Source: Azoarcus sp. L1K30
GTDB taxonomy: Bacteria; Pseudomonadota; Gammaproteobacteria; Burkholderiales; Rhodocyclaceae
DNA: 64,000 nucleotides
Assembly: GCF_018122735.1 (NCBI RefSeq)
Contig: NZ_JAGRRD010000001.1
Location: 3,713,475-3,777,474 of the forward strand
Direction of reading: 5' to 3'
Under the pieces are notes generated by a model. The model saw only the letters and a program-made list of their open reading frames with translations, did no database searches and was not told the origin of the DNA. The position numbers and the translations under genes are program-made. Below, one piece after another: positions 22,552 through 30,952 of the stretch. How positions within the stretch are numbered: the first letter of the stretch is position 1; every line of letters begins with the position of its first letter.

Positions 22552-23463
22552 TCAAGTCGAATGCACGCTTCGCCACTCGCGCAGCGCCGTCAGGGTGTCG
22601 GCGAGATCCGTGACAACACGAATTCCGGGCAGCCGGCGCTGCTTGTCTTTCAGCGCCGCGCCGCCCGCCCAGATTCCAATATGTGTCGGCAGGGCGTCCC
22701 GCAGTTCGACGAGGCCTTCAATCGCATGGCGCGCCGGGTAGGCCACGCTGAACGACAGGCCGACGATATCGAACTTGCCCCCGACCGCCGCGGACTGGAT
22801 GTCGGCCAGCGGCGTACGCGTGCCGAGCGACAGACAGGAGGCGCCTTCGGGCACCAGCGTGGCCTCGGCCATCAGCAGGCCGAGGATATGGTACTCGTCG
22901 GGAAACGTAGTCAACAGTATGCGGGGGCGACCGTTCGAAGTGGTGCTTGCGCCAATCGCGCCGCGCAGGATGTTCTGCACCTGTTCCGTATAAAGATGTT
23001 CTTCCGGGATGTCGATTTCGCCCCGAACCCACGCTTCGCCGATCGCCTCGTTGAGCGGCGCGATCGTTTCCGCAACGAAGCGTTGCAATCCCTGTTTCAT
23101 CAGTCCCTGATGCAGCGCCGCCAGCAGTTCGCCGCTGCGATGCAGTTTCACGTACTGCATCAGTTCCTGCTCGACGACGGCCGGTGTGCCGGGGGCGGAC
23201 GTAGCGCGATACGACTCGAGCAACGTGGTGAGCTCCGCGGACGTGCTCGGGATGACTTTTGACGGACGCTGGCCGAGGTCCAGCAGTCGTCGGATCAGGC
23301 GCAGCTTGTCGACCTGCTCCTGCGGATAGACGCGCTCACCGTTCGCATCCCGACCCGGCTTCGGAAAGTCGTAGCGGCGCTCCCAGACGCGCAGCGTGTC
23401 TTTCGAGAGTCCGGTGTCACGTTCGACGGCAGCGATGTTGAAGACGGTTTCAAGATTGGACAT
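22552..23463 (-). CDS. litR: MerR-family regulator with cobalamin-binding domain (LitR/CarH type)
   Basis: Transcriptional regulator of 303 aa. A MerR winged helix-turn-helix (residues 8-75: VFNIAAVERDTGLSKDTLRVWERRY) is followed by a four-helix cap and a B12-binding Rossmann domain. The cap carries the CarH signature W-x9-EH (Trp145, Glu155-His156). The E-x-H-x-x-G motif (EYHILG, His192) would supply the lower axial ligand to cobalt. Family members repress in the dark with adenosylcobalamin bound and release DNA when light cleaves it. The residue after Trp145 is Val, where Thermus CarH has His132. It is divergent from the lipid operon, with a palindrome 10 nt before its own ATG, so autorepression is likely. 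Confidence 0.9.
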   Translation of the reverse strand: MSNLETVFNIAAVERDTGLSKDTLRVWERRYDFPKPGRDANGERVYPQEQVDKLRLIRRLLDLGQRPSKVIPSTSAELTTLLESYRATSAPGTPAVVEQELMQYVKLHRSGELLAALHQGLMKQGLQRFVAETIAPLNEAIGEAWVRGEIDIPEEHLYTEQVQNILRGAIGASTTSNGRPRILLTTFPDEYHILGLLMAEATLVPEGASCLSLGTRTPLADIQSAAVGGKFDIVGLSFSVAYPARHAIEGLVELRDALPTHIGIWAGGAALKDKQRRLPGIRVVTDLADTLTALREWRSVHST

Positions 23464-23472
23464 GTCTTTGTT

Positions 23473-23487
23473 TTTGTCTTGGACAAA
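23473..23487. promoter_or_regulatory. Palindrome A, candidate LitR operator
   Basis: Perfect inverted repeat TTTGTC-TTG-GACAAA. It lies between the litR ATG (10 nt away) and the -35 box of the divergent promoter. Confidence 0.75.
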
Positions 23488-23490
23488 CGG

Positions 23491-23519
23491 TTGACAAGCG
23501 GTTTCGATGAATCTATCTT
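23491..23519 (+). promoter_or_regulatory. Sigma-70-type promoter of the lipid operon
   Basis: Perfect -35 TTGACA, a 17-bp spacer, then -10 TATCTT (4 of 6 to consensus). Transcription would start near 23526. The promoter is bracketed by palindromes A and B, whose centres are 63 bp apart, about six helical turns. Confidence 0.75.
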
Positions 23520-23535
23520 AGGTTTATCGAACACG

Positions 23536-23550
23536 TTTGTCTAGGACAAA
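23536..23550. promoter_or_regulatory. Palindrome B, candidate LitR operator
   Basis: Perfect inverted repeat TTTGTC-TAG-GACAAA, just downstream of the predicted transcription start. It contains the AGGA that serves as ribosome-binding site for the first operon gene. A bound repressor here would block transcription, and the repeat could also affect translation. Confidence 0.75.
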
Positions 23551-23551
23551 A

Positions 23552-23897
23552 ATGATGAAACGCCAAACAGTTGGAACGCTCGGCAAGTCCCTTGCAATCG
23601 TGCTCACTGCGACTGCTCTGATCATTGCACTAATGGTCCCCGCGAGCGCCTGGATGCGTGCGCACGACACGGCTTCCGAACCCGGTCTCACTAATTTTGT
23701 CGTGGACAAAGAGAGTGACGAACGACTTGGCCTGATGCTGGTGATCCATCGCCCCGGCATCGACACGCCGGTCGGGGGGGGATCCAGATGATGGTTTTGC
23801 GCATGGGATCGGCTTCATCGAGTTCGTGTTTCCGGGTGGCGCGATCCGTCACCGGTCATTCCCTATCCGCTACAGGAACTTGCGTGAACGCGCCTGA
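23552..23897 (+). CDS. Small exported or membrane-anchored protein, +1 frameshift in a G8 run
   Basis: First gene of the lipid operon; ATG 23552 follows AGGA by 5 nt (ATG 23555 also possible). An N-terminal hydrophobic segment (LAIVLTATALIIALMVPASA) looks like a signal peptide. As sequenced, the frame ends at 23791 after 79 aa. The +1 frame after the eight G at 23774-23781 reads on smoothly (DDGFAHGIGFIEFVFPGG) to a stop at 23897. With seven G the product would be 114 aa. Sequencing error, real mutation and slippage are all possible. No family is recognised. Palindrome C lies inside it. Confidence 0.6.
23696..23710. promoter_or_regulatory. Palindrome C, candidate LitR operator inside the first gene
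   Basis: Third perfect copy, TTTGTC-GTG-GACAAA, 160 bp from palindrome B and within coding sequence (it encodes FVVDK). An internal site could allow looping or act as a roadblock. Confidence 0.6.
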
Positions 23898-23977
23898 CCA
23901 TCTCTTCCTTTTCGATTTTCGGGCTGCATCCGATCGCAGCGTGCGTGCCGGGATCAAGGGTCCGCAGGAGCGTGATC

Positions 23978-25315
23978 ATGCGCATGGGTGAATTCGACCC
24001 GGTAGGCACCGGCGGCCAGCGCCGGATCGCAGTCGTGGGCGGCGGCATTGCCGGGCTCGGGACCGCCTGGCTGCTGTCGCCGCGCCATCAGGTGACCCTG
24101 TTCGAGGCCGCCGAACAGGTCGGTGGTCACACCAATACCATCGACGTCACGGTGGACGGCATCCAGCATCCGGTCGACACCGGTTTTCTGGTCTTCAACA
24201 GTCGCACCTATCCGCATCTCTGCGCCTTGTTCGACCATCTCGGCGTGTCGTCGGTCGCCAGCGAGATGAGTTTCGGTGTCAGCCTCGAATCGCCAGCGAT
24301 CGAATGGGCGGGATCCGATCTGGGCACGATTTTCGCCCAGCGTGCCAATCTTGTGCGCCCGGCCTTTCTCGGCATGCTGCGCGACATCATGCGCTTCAAT
24401 CGCGTCACGACGCGGATGGCGGCCGAGGGCAGGGTGCCTGAGCTTTGCCTCGGCGAGTATCTCGAGCGCGAACGGTATGGTGCGGCATTCCGCGACTGGT
24501 ATCTGCTGCCGATGGCCGCGGCGATCTGGTCCTGTCCGACGCGTACCATGCTGGCCTACCCGCTCGCGACCTTTGTACGCTTCTGTCACAACCATGGGCT
24601 GTTGCAGGTGTTCGACCGCCCGCAATGGAGGACGGTACGCGGCGGCGGGCGCACCTATGTGGCACGGATGGCAGCGTCGCTGGCTGATGTGCGCACGTCC
24701 TCGCCCGTGCGGCGGGTGGATCGCGACGAGTTCGGGGTGTGGATTCATTCGGCAGCGGGCGCGGAGCACTTCGACGAAGTCGTGTTCGCCTGTCACAGTG
24801 ACCAGACACTGGCCCTGCTCGGCAGCAAGGCCAGCGCTGACGAGCGGCGCGTGCTGGGTGCGGTGAACTACCAGGCGAATGTCGCGGTGGTGCACACCGA
24901 TGTCGCCCTGCTGCCGAAGCGGCGCAAGGTGTGGTCGGCGTGGAACTATCTCGCGGGTGCGGGCAGTGGTGACGAGCGCCCGGTGTCGGTGAGCTACCTG
25001 ATCAATCGCCTGCAACCCTTGCCTTTCGAAACCCAGGTCGTCGTCTCGCTCAATCCTTTCCGTCCGCCGCGCGCAGACCGCATTCTTCGCACTATTCACT
25101 ATGCACATCCGGTGTTCGATCAGGCCGCGATCGACGCCCAGCGTGCGTTGCCGTGCATTCAGGGCCGGCATCACAGCTGGTTTGCCGGTGCCTGGACCGG
25201 TTACGGATTTCATGAGGACGGCCTGAGGTCAGCGGTCGCCGTCGCCGAAAGTCTGGGCGCTCAGATTCCGTGGGATGCAGACCGCGTCGGGGTGCGCGCC
25301 GGAGCGGGTGCGTGA
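23978..25315 (+). CDS. FAD-dependent oxidoreductase (flavin amine oxidase-like), lipid operon
   Basis: Flavoprotein of 445 aa. ATG 23978 follows AGGAG by 7 nt. The N-terminal FAD motif is VVGGGIAGLGTAWLL (about residues 18-32), followed by LFEAAEQVGGHTNTIDV and VDTGFLVFNSRTYP. The C-terminus has SWFAGAWTGYGFHEDGLRSAV, the flavin-binding end of amine oxidase/desaturase-like proteins. This group is regularly encoded next to DUF1365 and cyclopropane fatty acid synthase genes, as here. Oxidation or desaturation of membrane acyl chains is an inference. The stop overlaps the next start (TGATG). Confidence 0.88.
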   Translation: MRMGEFDPVGTGGQRRIAVVGGGIAGLGTAWLLSPRHQVTLFEAAEQVGGHTNTIDVTVDGIQHPVDTGFLVFNSRTYPHLCALFDHLGVSSVASEMSFGVSLESPAIEWAGSDLGTIFAQRANLVRPAFLGMLRDIMRFNRVTTRMAAEGRVPELCLGEYLERERYGAAFRDWYLLPMAAAIWSCPTRTMLAYPLATFVRFCHNHGLLQVFDRPQWRTVRGGGRTYVARMAASLADVRTSSPVRRVDRDEFGVWIHSAAGAEHFDEVVFACHSDQTLALLGSKASADERRVLGAVNYQANVAVVHTDVALLPKRRKVWSAWNYLAGAGSGDERPVSVSYLINRLQPLPFETQVVVSLNPFRPPRADRILRTIHYAHPVFDQAAIDAQRALPCIQGRHHSWFAGAWTGYGFHEDGLRSAVAVAESLGAQIPWDADRVGVRAGAGA

Positions 25316-26109
25316 TGAGCACGGACACGATGCCCGCAACGCCGGGGGCGCTCGATTCCGCCGTGTGTTTCGGCGCGGTGGTGCATGAGCGTCACGCCGG
25401 CGCCCACAACCGTTTCGTCTACCCCACCGCATTCCTGCGTGTGCCGCTCGGCAGCGTCGAGACGCTGAACGTACCGCTGCTCGGTATCGATCGTTTCAAC
25501 GTGTTTTCCCTGCTGTGGCGCGATCACGGCCGGCGTGACGGCTCGCCCCTGCTGCCGTGGCTGCGGGAGATTCTCGAGCGTCACGACGTGGCCGAGGTGT
25601 GCGACGGCGAGGTGGTGCTGCAGACCATGCCGCGCATCGCCGGCTATGTGTTCAATCCGGTCAGTTTCTGGTTCTGTCACGACGCGTCGGGGCGCATCCG
25701 TGCCGTGCTCGCCGAAGTCAGCAACACTTTCGGCGAGCACCACAACTATCTGGTCCGCCACCCGGACGGCCGCCCCATCGTCACCGGCGACGAACTGCGT
25801 GCAAGCAAGGTGTTCCACGTTTCGCCGTTCCTGCCGCTTCGGGGGGAGTACCGATTCCGCTTCGAAGGCCGCGGAGCGGTGCATGCGGTTGCGATCGACT
25901 ACTGGGATGGTGGCGAACACCAGCTCACCACGCGTGTCGGCGGTCGCGCACAGGCATTGACCGGCACCGCAATGGGCAAATGGCTGCTGCGCTACCCCTT
26001 CATGACGCTGGGCGTTGTTGCCCGCATTCACTGGCAGGCCCTGCGGCTCGCACTCAAGCGTGTGAGCTTTCACCGCAAGCCCCAGCCCCCGATCGAGGAG
26101 ACGACCTGA
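25315..26109 (+). CDS. DUF1365 family protein, lipid operon
   Basis: Protein of 264 aa from ATG 25315, overlapping the upstream stop by 1 nt. The family signature is clear: FGAVVHERHAGAHNRFVYPTAFLRVPL near the start, then RIAGYVFNPVSFWFCHD and EVSNTFGEHHNYLV. DUF1365 has no assigned reaction, but is nearly always found between an FAD oxidoreductase and a fatty acid methyltransferase gene. It is therefore thought to act on the same lipid substrate. No signal peptide is seen. The stop overlaps the next start by 1 nt. Confidence 0.9.
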   Translation: MSTDTMPATPGALDSAVCFGAVVHERHAGAHNRFVYPTAFLRVPLGSVETLNVPLLGIDRFNVFSLLWRDHGRRDGSPLLPWLREILERHDVAEVCDGEVVLQTMPRIAGYVFNPVSFWFCHDASGRIRAVLAEVSNTFGEHHNYLVRHPDGRPIVTGDELRASKVFHVSPFLPLRGEYRFRFEGRGAVHAVAIDYWDGGEHQLTTRVGGRAQALTGTAMGKWLLRYPFMTLGVVARIHWQALRLALKRVSFHRKPQPPIEETT

Positions 26110-27338
26110 TGACTGTTGCCGACACTGCACTGCGCCCGTTGGCGCTCGAAACCCTCGGCAAGCTGCCGCGCCCCACCCGGCTGGCGCTCGAGATGCTCAA
26201 TCGCCTCGAAGGCGGCGCACTGGCCGTCGAGCTGCCAGACAACCGGCACCTGCGCCTGGGGCATGGTCCGCTGGTGGCGCATTTGCGCGTACGCGATCAT
26301 GCCGTATTCGACGAGGCCCTTGCACGTGGCGACATCGGCTTTGCCGAGAGCTATATGGACGGTGACTGGGACACCGAGGATCTGACGGGTTTGCTCACGC
26401 TTCTGTCGTCGAACCGGGCGCGGCTTCAGGACGCAATCTATGGCAGGGTCCTGCGTCTGATCAGGCATCGGCTGACCCACCTGCTGCGTGCCAATACCCG
26501 AACGGGTTCCCGGCGCAATATCGAGGCCCACTACGATCTCGGCAATGATTTCTACAGTCTTTGGCTGGACCCGGGCATGACATACTCCGCGGCCCTGTTC
26601 GCGTATCCCGACGAGAGCCTCGCAGCCGCTCAGCTGCGCAAGTACCGCCGCATCCTGCAGCAGCTTGCGCCACGACCGGGCCAGATCATTCTCGAAGTGG
26701 GTTGTGGCTGGGGCGGGTTCGCCGAAGTGGCGGCAACCGAGTTCGATTGCCGGGTACTGGGTATTACCCTGTCGCCATCACAACTGGCCTTTGCCCTCGA
26801 GCGTGCGATACGCGGCGGTTTTTCGGACCGGGTGCAGTTCGAACTGTGCGATTACCGCGACGTCAAGGGGCGCTACGATCATGTGGTGTCGATCGAAATG
26901 ATCGAGGCGGTGGGCGAGCGCTTCTGGCCGACCTATTTCGGCCAGCTGTCGGCCCTGCTCAAGCCGGGTGGGCGCTGCGTGGTGCAGTCGATCACCATTG
27001 CCGATCATCTTTTCGCACGCTACCGCCGGGGTACCGACTTCATTCAGCGCCATATCTTCCCCGGTGGCATGCTGCCTTGCCCGCAGTCGGTGCGCAGGCA
27101 GGCCGCGCGGGCCGGGCTCGAGATTGTGGACGACTTCGGTTTCGGGCCGGACTACGGACTGACGCTGGCGCGCTGGCGCGAAGCCTTCGATGCACGCGCG
27201 GCGGAGATTGCGGATCTGGGCTTTCCGCAGCGCTTCCTGCGCATGTGGCGCTTCTATCTCGCATACTGCGAGGCGGGATTCAGGGCCGGCGACATCGACG
27301 TTCGCCACTATACCTTCGCTCGTGCAGCAGGCCGTTGA
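26109..27338 (+). CDS. Cyclopropane-fatty-acyl-phospholipid synthase family methyltransferase
   Basis: SAM-dependent enzyme of 409 aa that adds a methylene or methyl group to unsaturated acyl chains of phospholipids. SAM motif I is ILEVGCGWGGFAE near residue 200. Upstream are HYDLGNDFYSLWLDPGMTYSAALF and downstream YDHVVSIEMIEAVGERFWPTYF and FIQRHIFPGG, all standard CFA synthase blocks. It could be a true cyclopropane synthase or one of the paralogues that C-methylate acyl chains, such as in furan fatty acid formation. Sequence alone does not decide. ATG 26109 overlaps the DUF1365 stop. Confidence 0.93.
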   Translation: MTVADTALRPLALETLGKLPRPTRLALEMLNRLEGGALAVELPDNRHLRLGHGPLVAHLRVRDHAVFDEALARGDIGFAESYMDGDWDTEDLTGLLTLLSSNRARLQDAIYGRVLRLIRHRLTHLLRANTRTGSRRNIEAHYDLGNDFYSLWLDPGMTYSAALFAYPDESLAAAQLRKYRRILQQLAPRPGQIILEVGCGWGGFAEVAATEFDCRVLGITLSPSQLAFALERAIRGGFSDRVQFELCDYRDVKGRYDHVVSIEMIEAVGERFWPTYFGQLSALLKPGGRCVVQSITIADHLFARYRRGTDFIQRHIFPGGMLPCPQSVRRQAARAGLEIVDDFGFGPDYGLTLARWREAFDARAAEIADLGFPQRFLRMWRFYLAYCEAGFRAGDIDVRHYTFARAAGR

Positions 27339-27341
27339 GCC

Positions 27342-27902
27342 ATGCGCATCACGGCCGCAATCCTGCTGAGTCTTGTGCTTTACGCCGGACAGGCAGGCGC
27401 GTCGCTGCCGGTTCCGTTGCCGGCAGCCGTGCTTGCCGACGCCAGGCAGGTGGCCGGCGAGCTGCGACCGCTGGGCAGCGGAGAAATGCGCTGGTTCGGC
27501 TTCAAGATCTACGATGCCGCACTGTGGGTGCCGGCTGGCGTCGGCTGGTCCACCGAGACGGTCTTCGCGCTCGCCATCCGTTATGCACGCGATATCGAGG
27601 GCGAGCGTCTGGTTGAAGCCACGCTGGACGAGATGCGGCGCATGGGCCTGGCTGAAGAGGCGCGCATCGCCCGATGGCGCGAGCCTCTGACACGAGCGCT
27701 GCCCTCCGTGGCCGTGGGCGATACGCTGGTCGGACTGTCCGTGCCGGACGGCGGCGCGCGTTTCTGGCACGACGGCAAGTCGACCGCGATACTGGAGGAC
27801 TCGGACCTCGCGCGCGCCTTCTTCGCGATCTGGCTCGACAGCCAGACCCGCGAACCGGCGCTGAGATTGAAGCTGCTGGGGCTCGAGCAGGTGTCGAGAT
27901 GA
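27342..27902 (+). CDS. Chalcone isomerase-like exported protein, lipid operon
   Basis: Protein of 186 aa with a signal peptide (ITAAILLSLVLYAGQAGA) and a chalcone-isomerase-like fold signature: GSGEMRWFGFKIYDAALWVP and a late SDLARAFFAIWLDSQT. Bacterial members are periplasmic and are related to fatty-acid-binding relatives of plant chalcone isomerase, so lipid binding is a reasonable guess. It starts 3 bp after the methyltransferase gene and its stop overlaps the next start (ATGA). Confidence 0.85.
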   Translation: MRITAAILLSLVLYAGQAGASLPVPLPAAVLADARQVAGELRPLGSGEMRWFGFKIYDAALWVPAGVGWSTETVFALAIRYARDIEGERLVEATLDEMRRMGLAEEARIARWREPLTRALPSVAVGDTLVGLSVPDGGARFWHDGKSTAILEDSDLARAFFAIWLDSQTREPALRLKLLGLEQVSR

Positions 27903-29188
27903 CGAACCTCGCGCCGGCATTTGGGCGCTCCGCAGTCGTTGCCTATGGTGCGCTCGGCCTGCCGCTGGCCTTTGCGGCGCTGCCACTCTATGTCTATGTG
28001 CCGCGGCTCTACGCAGACGGGCTGGGCCTGTCACTGGCCACGGTGGGACTGGTGTTGCTGGGCGTGCGCATTTTCGATGCAGTGTCGGATCCGCTGATCG
28101 GCTGGTTCAGCGACCGCCTGGCCGGACGCCGCATGCTGGTGCTGTCGGCCTTGCCGGTGCTTGCGCTGGGCATGGTCGGGCTGCTGAGGCCACCGCCTGA
28201 CGCAGGTGCCCTATGGCTGGGCGCGCTTGTGACGCTGGTGTCGGTCGCGTATTCAGTCGCGACGATTGCCTACAATGCCTGGGGCGCCGAAGTCGCGCCC
28301 ACCTCAGCCTTGCGCACGCGGGTGGTCGCCAGCAGAGAGGCCTTCGCGCTGTTTGGCGTGGTGCTTGCCGCGGCGCTTCCCGGGCTGCTGGCCGGGGGCG
28401 ATGAGTCGCGTGGGCTGGCGCGCTTGGCCTGGCTCTTCATCCCCATCCTGATCCTGTGCGGCGGGTGCACGCTGCTGCTCGCGCCGGCGGCCCCGCCCCG
28501 CGTGTGCAGGCGGCAAGCTGTGTTCGGAAGTCTGCGCGCTGCGCTGCGCTGTCGTCCGTTCTCCCGGTTGCTGATGGTATTCGCCGCCAATGGCATCGCT
28601 GCAGCCATTCCGTCCGCGACCGTGCTGTTCTTCGTCGCGGACGTGCTTCAGGCGCCGCAACTCGCCGGCCTGTTTCTGGTGCTCTACTTCTTCAGCGCGG
28701 CACTGAGCCTTCCGGGATGGGCGGCCGTGTCCTTACGCGTTGGGAAACTGCGTGCATGGCTGGCCGGGATGGTGCTCGCGATTGCGGTCTTTGTCTGGGC
28801 CAGCCTGCTCGGGGCCGGAGAAACCACCGCCTACGCGCTGATCTGCATCCTGTCCGGGGTGGCGCTCGGCGCAGACCTCGCGCTGCCGCCGTCTCTGCTT
28901 GCCGACCTGCTGGCACGTGACGAGGAGGATGGGCAGGCCCGCGCCGGCGCATGGTTCGGGTGGTGGAACTTCGTCACCAAGGCAAATCTCGCGCTCGCGG
29001 CCGGGCTTGCGTTGCCTCTGCTGGGCGGCCTGGGCTATGAACCCGGCACCCGCAGTGCCGATGCACTGGCGGCGCTGACACTCGTGTATGCGCTGGTTCC
29101 GGTTGGGCTGAAATGCCTCGCCATCATGCTGCTTTGGCACTGGCGCGACACCGTAGATCCGTATTTCCGCACTGGAGAAACCGTGTGA
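27899..29188 (+). CDS. MFS/GPH-type transporter, lipid operon
   Basis: Polytopic membrane protein of 429 aa, about 12 hydrophobic segments. The motif DAVSDPLIGWFSDR after helix 2 is typical of the glycoside-pentoside-hexuronide (MelB-like) branch of the major facilitator superfamily. The later LADLLARDEEDGQARAGAWFGWWNFVTKANLALAAGLALP region also fits. Transport of a lipid precursor or product is plausible from context only. ATG 27899 overlaps the upstream stop by 4 nt, and the stop overlaps the next start. Confidence 0.87.
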   Translation: MTNLAPAFGRSAVVAYGALGLPLAFAALPLYVYVPRLYADGLGLSLATVGLVLLGVRIFDAVSDPLIGWFSDRLAGRRMLVLSALPVLALGMVGLLRPPPDAGALWLGALVTLVSVAYSVATIAYNAWGAEVAPTSALRTRVVASREAFALFGVVLAAALPGLLAGGDESRGLARLAWLFIPILILCGGCTLLLAPAAPPRVCRRQAVFGSLRAALRCRPFSRLLMVFAANGIAAAIPSATVLFFVADVLQAPQLAGLFLVLYFFSAALSLPGWAAVSLRVGKLRAWLAGMVLAIAVFVWASLLGAGETTAYALICILSGVALGADLALPPSLLADLLARDEEDGQARAGAWFGWWNFVTKANLALAAGLALPLLGGLGYEPGTRSADALAALTLVYALVPVGLKCLAIMLLWHWRDTVDPYFRTGETV

Positions 29189-29721
29189 TGAAAAAACGCC
29201 TGTTGCTTCTTACCGGGCTGTTGGCGCTGGCCGGCTGCACATCCGTCGATATCGAGGCGTATCGCAACACCACGCCCGAGCTCGATCTGCGAAGTTATTT
29301 CAACGGCACACTCGATGCGCACGGGATGTTCCAGAATCGCTCCGGCGAGGTGGTGAAGCGTTTTCACGTATTGATCGAGGCGAGCTGGAAGGGCGATGTG
29401 GGTACGCTGGACGAACGCTTCACCTATGCCGACGGCAGCACACAGCGACGCGTGTGGACCATTACCCGTCACAGCGCCCAAGCCTATGTCGGCACCGCGG
29501 ATGACGTCGTCGGTGAAGCGCGTGGCGAGGCTCGCGGCAACGCCCTGCGCTGGCGCTACGTGATGGCGCTGCCGGTCGATGGCAAGGTGTACAACGTCGA
29601 CTTCGACGACTGGATGTTCCTGATGGACGACAGGGTCATGCTCAATCGTTCGGTCATGAGCAAGTGGGGCGTGAGGCTGGGCGAGGTGACGCTGTCCTTC
29701 TACAAACGGACAGCGCGATGA
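29188..29721 (+). CDS. DUF3833 family lipoprotein, lipid operon
   Basis: Protein of 177 aa with a lipoprotein signal, LLALAGC, the cysteine at about residue 17. The mature part has the DUF3833 signature: ELDLRSYFNGTLDAHGMFQNRSG near the start and DFDDWMFLMDDRVMLNRSVMSKWG near the end. The beta-rich domain suggests ligand binding at the outer membrane; no reaction is known. The ATG overlaps the transporter stop by 1 nt, and the stop overlaps the SDR start by 4 nt. Confidence 0.87.
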   Translation: MKKRLLLLTGLLALAGCTSVDIEAYRNTTPELDLRSYFNGTLDAHGMFQNRSGEVVKRFHVLIEASWKGDVGTLDERFTYADGSTQRRVWTITRHSAQAYVGTADDVVGEARGEARGNALRWRYVMALPVDGKVYNVDFDDWMFLMDDRVMLNRSVMSKWGVRLGEVTLSFYKRTAR

Positions 29722-30512
29722 ACCCGTTCGTCCCCCTGAATCCGCCGATTCGTGACTGGCGCGGCCTGCGTGTATGGCTGGTCGGTGCATCCACCGGTAT
29801 CGGCGCGGCACTCGCGCGCAGGCTGTCCGCTCACGGGGCACGGGTGGCCCTGTCGGCGCGTGGCCGCGACCGTCTGGAGACGCTCGCGGCCGAATGTGCC
29901 GACGGTGCGGAGGTGATCGTGGTGCCGATGGATGTCACCTGTGCCGACGATTTCGTGCGCACGCGCGATCATCTGCTCGCGCAATGGGGGGCGATCGACC
30001 TGGTCGTACTCAACGCCGGCACCTATCAGCCGCTGCGGGCATGGGAGCTGACGCCGCAGCGTATCCGCGACACGCTCGACGTCAATCTGCTCGGGGTCAT
30101 GGATGGTGTCGCGGCGGTCGTGCCGACGATGCTCGAGCACGGCCACGGCGCCATTGCAATCGTGGCGTCGGTGGCGGGGTATGGCGGACTGCCCAACGCG
30201 GTGACCTACGGGCCGTCGAAAGCGGCCTTGATCAATTTTGCTGAAACGCTTTATCTCGACCTTGCTCCGCGCGGGCTCGGCGTGCACCTGATCTGCCCCG
30301 GCTTCGTGGCCACGCCACTGACGGCGCAGAACGAGTTCCACATGCCGGCGCTGATCTCGGCCGAAAAGGCGGCCGAATACATGGTTTCGGGTCTGGCGCG
30401 TGGCGCGTTCGAGATCCACTTCCCCAGGCGTTTCACCCGCATTCTCAAGCTGCTGCAGTGCATGCCACGGCGCCTGTATTTTCCGCTGATCGGACGCGCG
30501 ACGGGGCTGTGA
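29718..30512 (+). CDS. Short-chain dehydrogenase/reductase, lipid operon
   Basis: NAD(P)-dependent SDR of 264 aa. The cofactor motif is VGASTGIGAALA. The NAG motif is VVLNAGTY. The catalytic triad is Ser in IVASVAGYGG and the Y-x3-K in VTYGPSKAALINF. The C-terminal part (RFTRILKLLQCMPRRLYFPLIG) is basic and hydrophobic, so peripheral membrane contact is likely. The substrate is unknown. ATG 29718 overlaps the upstream stop. Confidence 0.9.
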   Translation: MNPFVPLNPPIRDWRGLRVWLVGASTGIGAALARRLSAHGARVALSARGRDRLETLAAECADGAEVIVVPMDVTCADDFVRTRDHLLAQWGAIDLVVLNAGTYQPLRAWELTPQRIRDTLDVNLLGVMDGVAAVVPTMLEHGHGAIAIVASVAGYGGLPNAVTYGPSKAALINFAETLYLDLAPRGLGVHLICPGFVATPLTAQNEFHMPALISAEKAAEYMVSGLARGAFEIHFPRRFTRILKLLQCMPRRLYFPLIGRATGL

Positions 30513-30952
30513 TGAAGCCTTTCGACGTTGCCGCCGCTGCCCGCAATGTGGCGACATTCTATGAACATCTTTCACCCGCAGCCTTGCCCCGGATCGGCAC
30601 ATTCTATGCTGACGATGCGCGCTTCAAGGATCCGTTCAACGATGTTCGGGGACTGTCCGTCATTACCCGGATTTTCGAGCACATGTTCGAAACCGTGGAG
30701 GCGCCGCGCTTTGTCGTGAATACATTGATCGCCGAAGGACAGCAGGCCATGCTCGGTTGGACGTTTCATCTGAGGCTGCGTGGCCGCGCCCTTGTGATTC
30801 AGGGTGTCAGCCACCTCTGTTTCAATGCGCAGGGACAGATCGTGACGCACCGCGACTATTGGGACGCGGCCGAAGAGTTGTATGCGCAATTGCCCATTGT
30901 GGGCCGCCTGATGCGTCTTCTGCAGCGCAGATTGTCTGCCGGCGGGGGCTGA
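30512..30952 (+). CDS. NTF2-like (SnoaL) family protein, end of the lipid operon
   Basis: Protein of 146 aa with the cone-shaped NTF2/SnoaL fold signature: an early helix (ARNVATFYEHL), ARFKDPFNDVRG in the pocket region, and GQIVTHRDYWDAAEELY. Members are isomerases, cyclases or ligand binders. The ATG overlaps the SDR stop by 1 nt. This is the last gene of the coupled chain; about 200 bp without genes follow before coxB. Confidence 0.85.
   Translation: MKPFDVAAAARNVATFYEHLSPAALPRIGTFYADDARFKDPFNDVRGLSVITRIFEHMFETVEAPRFVVNTLIAEGQQAMLGWTFHLRLRGRALVIQGVSHLCFNAQGQIVTHRDYWDAAEELYAQLPIVGRLMRLLQRRLSAGGG

Follow-up and report, generated by a model that had tools for sequence, protein, structure and literature searches.

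In Azoarcus sp. L1K30, a MerR-family regulator of the LitR/CarH type very probably controls the operon that adjoins it, and we consider it probable, judging from the sequence and its relatives, that LitR acts as an adenosylcobalamin (AdoCbl)-using dark repressor of a furan-lipid operon, from which it would be released by light. The locus lies in a stretch of 64,000 nt (NZ_JAGRRD010000001.1, positions 3,713,475–3,777,474; referred to below as the window), and the host genome searched comprised 4.98 Mb. The litR gene (22552–23463, minus strand) is divergent from the operon (23552–30952, plus strand), and all open reading frames (ORFs) listed there are open. The original prediction had described this divergent arrangement and the gene content of the operon, and the ORFs and their Pfam matches bear out both. 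We infer that LitR binds to palindromes around the operon promoter, that expression responds to light and that a furan fatty acid is formed.

The connection between the regulator and the operon was surveyed in 199 genomes of the family with a LitR threshold of E ≤ 1e-15. LitR was found in 80 genomes, DUF1365 in 84 and both in 77 (Fisher p = 1.1e-42, a value that ignores kinship). In 69 of these 77 genomes the two genes were located at most 10 kb apart, 67 of the 69 pairs being divergent, while in the remaining eight they were on different contigs (five genomes) or far apart on one contig (G018, G082, and G158). Loci were inspected in seven of the eight unlinked genomes (all except G103) and in all seven DUF1365 genomes without LitR. 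At one of them, L098, a piece of LitR was found at the contig end beside ufaD, thus the linkage is somewhat under-counted. It had been proposed in advance that the same gene set standing without LitR in nearly all close relatives would refute the prediction; since LitR was present in 77 of the 84 DUF1365 genomes, the prediction is not refuted in this way. When the best 80 of 181 LitR matches were followed on their contigs, they represented 78 loci, 52 of which had ufaD on the divergent side, and several of the others were short contigs. ORFs were listed for eight of the 26 loci without ufaD, and no shared target could be named from them; folE2 and/or a glutathione peroxidase gene was near litR in six of the 26, several others again being short contigs. 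In a class-wide sample, DUF1365 was detected in 78 of 274 genomes, including the host genome, and 40 of these 78 gammaproteobacterial loci (the 30 best-scoring and 10 hand-picked ones) were examined. LitR-like proteins scored above 50 bits in 11 and ChrR-like ones in six, although these counts are rough because the ChrR model derives from a single sequence and may pick up lone cupins as well. In the family, a ChrR-type anti-sigma factor was recognized by eye at L088 beside a bare ufaD-ufaO-ufaM set.

Short palindromes of the form TTGTCNNNGACAA flank the promoter of the operon and are likely, given their positions and their company with litR, to be the binding sites of LitR. The putative operator 1, TTTGTCTTGGACAAA (23473–23487), is situated just upstream of the −35 hexamer. 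It is followed by a sigma-70-type promoter, TTGACA-17 nt-TATCTT (10/12; 23491–23519, plus strand), whose layout recurs in relatives, and by the putative operator 2, TTTGTCTAGGACAAA (23536–23550), which lies 63 bp from operator 1, between the predicted start site and the first start codon. Both operators were found by pattern search and in relatives. A third putative LitR site, TTTGTCGTGGACAAA (23696–23710), was detected by the pattern search within the small first ORF, where it is in frame and reads F-V-V-D-K. The pattern TTTGTCNNGGACAAA thus occurs at 23473, 23536, and 23696, from the litR side to the middle of the first gene. With up to two mismatches it gave eight matches on the two strands of the window versus 0.47 expected, the fourth place being 60073, and with up to one mismatch it occurred at three places in the whole genome, all at this locus.

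The same sites were followed in 77 LitR loci (1.34 Mb; L049 was excluded, its LitR being cut by the contig end). These loci are often related, so the counts are not independent events. Eighty-six of the 91 perfect-arm sites fell into the 450-bp stretches upstream of litR. Among the 53 ufaD-linked cases, the window included, 42 had a perfect upstream site and all 53 had one with at most one mismatch, and a perfect site also stood upstream of litR in 8 of the 25 loci without ufaD nearby. Pairs of sites no more than 130 bp apart, with one mismatch allowed in each, were counted after dropping the duplicate L034 and keeping the loci without ufaD. The 55 pairs were spaced by 63 bp (31 pairs), 62 bp (13), 64 bp (1), 72–75 bp (9), or 80 bp (1), that is, 54 of them were separated by 62–64 or 72–75 bp, approximately six or seven helical turns, and only three such pairs were found in the same loci more than 600 bp from litR. 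In Azoarcus KH32C, which was outside the locus set, the spacing was 74 bp and one of the sites had one mismatch. The distance from the −35 box to operator 2 was 45–47 bp in all 42 pairs with a TTGAC-type −35, while that from operator 1 to the −35 box was 16–17 bp (33 pairs), 27–29 bp (8), or 33 bp (1). The extra helical turn inserted between operator 1 and the −35 box argues for two bound proteins touching each other across the promoter, rather than for an operator 1 fixed relative to the polymerase.

The regulator itself (303 aa) was identified by Pfam, by motifs and by structure–sequence matches as a MerR protein with a B12-binding four-helix domain (Wx9EH) and a Rossmann domain (ExHxxG-x41-SxS...GG), MerR_1 and B12-binding_2 both scoring above their cut-offs. 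The nearest solved structures were 3whp (E 2.2e-28) and Thermus CarH 5c8d (E 2.6e-28), the alignment with the latter spanning residues 6–291, and the closest named proteins among the best 80 of 181 matches came from Azoarcus sp. (76% identity) and Parazoarcus communis (71%). Wx9EH was present in all 79 LitRs compared, and E/DxHxxG-x41-Sx[S/A]...GG in 78, the sole miss being the truncated L049; the third residue of SxS/A is serine in 77 and alanine in one, in place of the T/V of the lower-ligand motif form E/DxHxxG/P-x41-SxT/V-...GG given in PMC9304148. The recognition helix RxWERRY is RVWERRY in the window, and R[VMI]WERRY was found in 76 of the 79 proteins, truncated L049 being among the misses. 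A lack of the second B12-binding domain, which defines class II LitR, does not apply to this protein, since both the domain and its His are present. Matches to a CobA/BtuR-type adenosyltransferase and to CobS show AdoCbl-related genes in the genome. A PADLOC search with four proteins gave a single match, that of LitR to mad1 over the helix-turn-helix part. An exact search of the whole genome for the pattern encoding NCRFLQ, which we take to be the LOV motif, returned no match; thus LitR itself is likely to be the light sensor, by way of an altered switch.

The predicted product of the operon, a furan fatty acid, follows from the homologues of ufaD, ufaO, and ufaM, which stand side by side with overlapping ends in the same order as in Paracoccus pPZ02. 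The ufaD-like gene (23978–25315, plus strand) encodes a FAD-dependent protein, a predicted fatty-acyl desaturase (Pfam Amino_oxidase/NAD_binding_8 and pairwise identity), the ufaO-like gene (25312–26109, plus strand) a DUF1365 protein (2.6e-73), predicted to be the furan-forming oxygenase, and the ufaM-like gene (26109–27338, plus strand) a predicted S-adenosylmethionine-dependent fatty-acyl methyltransferase of the cyclopropane fatty acid (CFA) synthase family (Pfam CMAS, 9.9e-82). The identities to UfaD, UfaO, and UfaM were 46%, 41%, and 50% with the proteins of Paracoccus pPZ02 and 60%, 49%, and 56% with those of Azoarcus KH32C, these two rather than R. sphaeroides being the references. RSP1087–RSP1089 of R. 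sphaeroides presumably include a major facilitator superfamily (MFS) and a short-chain dehydrogenase/reductase (SDR) protein, which agrees with the annotated Paracoccus pPZ02 cluster. Single deletion of RSP1087, RSP1088, or RSP1089 is reported to leave the fatty-acid profile of R. sphaeroides unchanged, while UfaM, UfaD, and UfaO suffice there for the 9M5-furan fatty acid: UfaM methylates cis-vaccenate, UfaD carries out a desaturation, and UfaO (DUF1365) is required to insert the O2-derived oxygen (PMC7380195). Control of carotenoid synthesis by LitR was also considered and set aside, as the operon includes no carotenoid gene (the genome and the relatives were not searched for such genes).

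If LitR is a dark repressor, AdoCbl would be its chromophore, and in the dark a LitR oligomer would occupy the two palindromes, which surround the −35/−10 promoter and share one face of the DNA, as well as the third one inside the first gene. The bound protein would thereby shut off transcription of the operon and probably that of litR, too. Light would break the Co–C bond, LitR would let go, and the ordinary sigma-70 RNA polymerase could then transcribe the operon. UfaM, UfaD, and UfaO would turn a cis-vaccenoyl lipid into a methyl-furan fatty acid, which scavenges photo-oxidants, and the envelope and lipid-handling accessory proteins would be made alongside.

Several observations weigh against this proposal. 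The match of LitR to the Pfam B12-binding domain (26.8 bits) is below the cut-off of 32.1, and its score for the NCBIfam CarH equivalog is 135 versus a cut-off of 400. None of the 79 LitRs has His at the position of TtCarH His132, where M (40), L (16), A (11), V (8), and I (4) were found, and the equivalent is Glu in Azoarcus KH32C and R, E, A, A, L, Q, and R in seven LitRs of the class sample (above 100 bits and with both motifs). An equivalent of the Arg176–Asp201 pair, its presumed positions being counted from His177, is missing from all 78 LitRs compared, and the window has Y–R there. The H132A mutant of Thermus CarH mostly stays tetrameric in light, although a contrary earlier report is cited in the same source (PMC10442372). 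Many CarH homologues have this His (PMC9304148), while other B12 photoreceptors are described with Arg (CtMerR), Gln (SasPcob), or Tyr (AbDPcob) in its place (PMC11796333); thus the His after Trp is common but not universal among B12 photoreceptors and does not strictly define class I. Its absence has precedent, yet, as far as the alignment tells, the release of a LitR lacking the light-state ligand of Thermus must work differently from that of Thermus CarH. On the side of linkage, 7 of the 84 DUF1365 genomes had no LitR, the operon was seen without LitR beside it in the three far-apart cases (L093, L094, and L095) and in L092, which speaks against a fixed pairing, and in 23 of the 40 loci of the class sample no protein scored above 50 bits as either LitR-like or ChrR-like. 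Moreover, the reversed control of TTTGTCNNGGACAAA had four places versus three real ones per strand genome-wide, exact TTGTCNNNGACAA occurred at six places in the genome, three of them at this locus, versus seven for its reversed control, and the promoter scan gave two sites versus 1.6 in shuffles. The number of sites in the genome is not above chance, and only their clustering at the litR locus is special. Consequently, no wider LitR regulon is claimed; it was dropped with these counts, and the photolyase locus L083 had only weak sites (three with two mismatches, while at least three were found in 13 of 200 shuffles).

MerR proteins are often activators, and the promoters that they activate have stretched spacers. 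The palindromes could therefore belong to LitR acting as an activator, or to another regulator with LitR as a mere neighbour, but both are very improbable, as the spacer of the operon promoter is 17 nt and the palindromes accompany litR even where ufaD is not nearby. It is rather unlikely that LitR reports the AdoCbl status of the cell instead of light, in which case AdoCbl-bound LitR would repress and the loss of AdoCbl by oxidation, shortage, or light would derepress. The conserved AdoCbl-contact motifs combined with the missing His132 and Arg176–Asp201 pair would fit such a sensor, as would the mostly blocked light release of Thermus CarH H132A (PMC10442372); however, CtMerR, SasPcob, and AbDPcob are photoreceptors without the His (PMC11796333), and elsewhere these genes form part of the response to photo-oxidation (PMC6852236, PMC9758184).

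A partner protein that removes a LitR blind to light, whether an antirepressor of the CarS kind or a short LOV protein like that of Pseudomonas, would have a model in class II PmlR2, which works so with PmSB-LOV (PMC9758184). This seems decidedly unlikely here, because the exact NCRFLQ pattern is missing from the genome (CarS-like proteins were not searched) and LitR, unlike those of class II, keeps the second B12 domain with its His. As for the product, the ufaM-like gene belongs to the CFA-synthase family, within which UfaM and Cfa are not told apart by the searches, so ordinary cyclopropane or methyl-branched lipids could be made in place of furan fatty acids. We regard this as unlikely beside the adjoining homologues of ufaD and ufaO, which are needed for the furan in R. 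sphaeroides and together with ufaM are sufficient there (PMC7380195).

The dark repressor proposed here has its closest counterpart in the class II LitRs PplR and PmlR of Pseudomonas, one of the classes I–V reported in PMC9758184. Light-inducible LitR-linked clusters with ufaM, a FAD oxidoreductase, and an SDR gene are described there, partly citing Sumi 2020, and the promoter layout found here matches that at P6650 of P. mendocina, where Site 1 is on the −35 box and Site 2 is between the start site and the ATG of a sigma-70-like promoter that is repressed in vitro (PMC9758184). In P. putida, LitR control extends to a gene for GTP cyclohydrolase (named folE in PMC9758184), and folE2, ufaM, and phrB are PplR targets (PMC8508746). 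The original suggestion of an undescribed system is not supported, given these clusters and the furan synthesis by UfaM, UfaD, and UfaO (PMC7380195). The Pseudomonas proteins differ in that they are described without the second B12 domain, PmlR2 being relieved by a LOV protein, and their operator is TGTACA-N12-TGTACA with a photolyase in the cluster (PMC9758184), while here the putative operator is TTGTCNNNGACAA and the operon has no photolyase. The pairing of LitR with ufaM is therefore already known in kind, and the difference, as read from the protein, is a B12 site kept without the Thermus switch residues. No B12-type LitR paired with furan fatty acids was found among the literature matches listed, which does not settle priority.

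Homologues of ufaD, ufaO, and ufaM with MFS and SDR genes are likewise found in the RpoE–ChrR (ECF11) singlet-oxygen regulon (RSP1087–1091 and ufaM; PMC7380195, PMC6852236), where a sigma/anti-sigma factor is in control. No ChrR match above the cut-off was found in the genome of L1K30, two weak matches being lone cupins by eye, hence ChrR control of the operon was rejected, and an rpoE–chrR pair is wanting on the ChrR side (no search was made for the sigma factor). The prediction that LitR stands in the place of the sigma factor agrees with Azoarcus KH32C pAZKH, where a MerR gene accompanies the same operon that has a sigma/anti-sigma pair in Paracoccus pPZ02. Thermus thermophilus CarH/LitR (class I) has the same domain order and the Wx9EH and ExHxxG motifs, but it controls carotenoids and has His132 and Arg176–Asp201, while the LitR described here lacks these residues and adjoins an operon predicted to modify lipids. 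In the blue-light response of Vibrio cholerae (VCA0056/ChrR), a MerR-like regulator and a light-induced CFA-type gene, VC1122, are similarly involved, but the regulator is in a predicted operon with phr (PMC5241685), and class IV LitR, mainly of Vibrio, is described as lacking the B12-binding domain (PMC9758184).

Two plasmids carry related genes. The LitR-ufa operon of Azoarcus KH32C is on the 738-kb pAZKH (L171), typed as mobilizable, and a plasmid of Cupriavidus sp. USMAHM13 (L172) has FAD and DUF1365 genes beside a TetR regulator, together with genes for lipocalin, DUF2878 and DUF1295 proteins, two genes of the CFA type, and one of the photolyase family. This TetR is possibly a third type of regulator for the furan-lipid pathway.

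The first gene of the operon is a small ORF of 79 aa (23552–23791, plus strand, recognized by ORF comparison; its start is at 23552 or 23555). Its N-terminal stretch is hydrophobic, and its C-terminal motif, LMLVIHR, resembles those of relatives. It had no Pfam or NCBIfam match, and in many LitR loci operator 2 is likewise followed by a small ORF. The FVxDK stretch was rejected as a sign of protein conservation since it is operator 3 read in frame, thus only the hydrophobic N-terminus and the C-terminal His motif remain as protein evidence. For the latter, a hydrophobic-His motif (e.g., LMLFMHR, VKIFLHQN), a pattern fitted to these same ORFs matched 30 of 47, several of which 47 are clearly wrong ORFs. 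The ORFs look like an unannotated family, first in LitR operons, with an N-terminus signal-like by eye and an embedded operator. Next comes a remnant of folE2 (GTP cyclohydrolase; 23884–23991, plus strand), in which the start is joined to the end in 35 codons and approximately 700 bp is gone, while the gene is intact at the same place in the closest two named relatives (L004 and L005). The distance from litR to the DUF1365 match is 1903 bp here versus 2660–3127 bp in the four other genomes of the genus searched. The genome also encodes a FolE2 at another place. By hand count, folE2 lies between litR and ufaD in 34 of the 52 ufaD-linked loci (partial L073 matches included) and a glutathione-peroxidase-like gene in 29 (e.g., L007, 9066–9656), though none of the latter was found in the litR–ufaD gap of the window.

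Downstream of ufaM, all on the plus strand, are genes for a chalcone-isomerase-like protein (27342–27902; Pfam Chalcone_3, 4e-10) with an N-terminus signal-like by eye, an MFS_2/GPH-like transporter (27899–29188; MFS_2, 1.6e-56), a DUF3833 protein with the lipobox LALAGC by eye (29188–29721; 1e-71), an SDR (29718–30512; adh_short), and a SnoaL/NTF2-like protein (30512–30952; SnoaL_2). As predicted, most genes are joined by 1- or 4-nt overlaps: between ufaD and the end of the operon there are seven junctions, and six of them overlap in this way (depending on the start codons picked), while ufaM and the Chalcone_3 gene are separated by a 3-nt gap. Judged by eye from their N-termini, the small ORF, Chalcone_3, and DUF3833 proteins may be exported. 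The originally suggested transport of a modified lipid would be a possible role for such parts. PDB sequence searches with the DUF1365 and DUF3833 profiles and the Chalcone_3 protein gave no credible relative. In L027, L032, L034, L095, and L096 the genes for the Chalcone_3 and MFS proteins are detached from the operon and oriented towards it, which suggests that they form their own unit. A terminator scan found 4 versus 6.9 in shuffles, and the gene after the operon is, by eye, cytochrome c oxidase subunit II. The absence of a photolyase noted earlier holds for the operon but not for the genome, where one match lies approximately 39 kb before the start of the window.

More tentatively, and at somewhat less than even chances, the Rhodocyclales and their neighbours may have a separate B12-photoreceptor subtype, which keeps the AdoCbl motifs yet needs neither the bis-His ligand nor the CarH salt bridge for switching, whose oligomer bridges two operators six (or seven) turns apart across the promoter, with a third in-frame operator in the first gene, and which places furan-lipid synthesis under direct light control. 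Such light-triggered control would contrast with ChrR, the other known controller of the pathway, which responds to singlet oxygen. If true, the short palindromes, a sigma-70 promoter, and one regulator would constitute a compact light-switch module, and control without the cobalt ligand switch of Thermus CarH would offer a natural test of the B12-photoreceptor mechanism. In a broad betaproteobacterial group, a B12 photoreceptor would then govern membrane lipid chemistry and not carotenoids.

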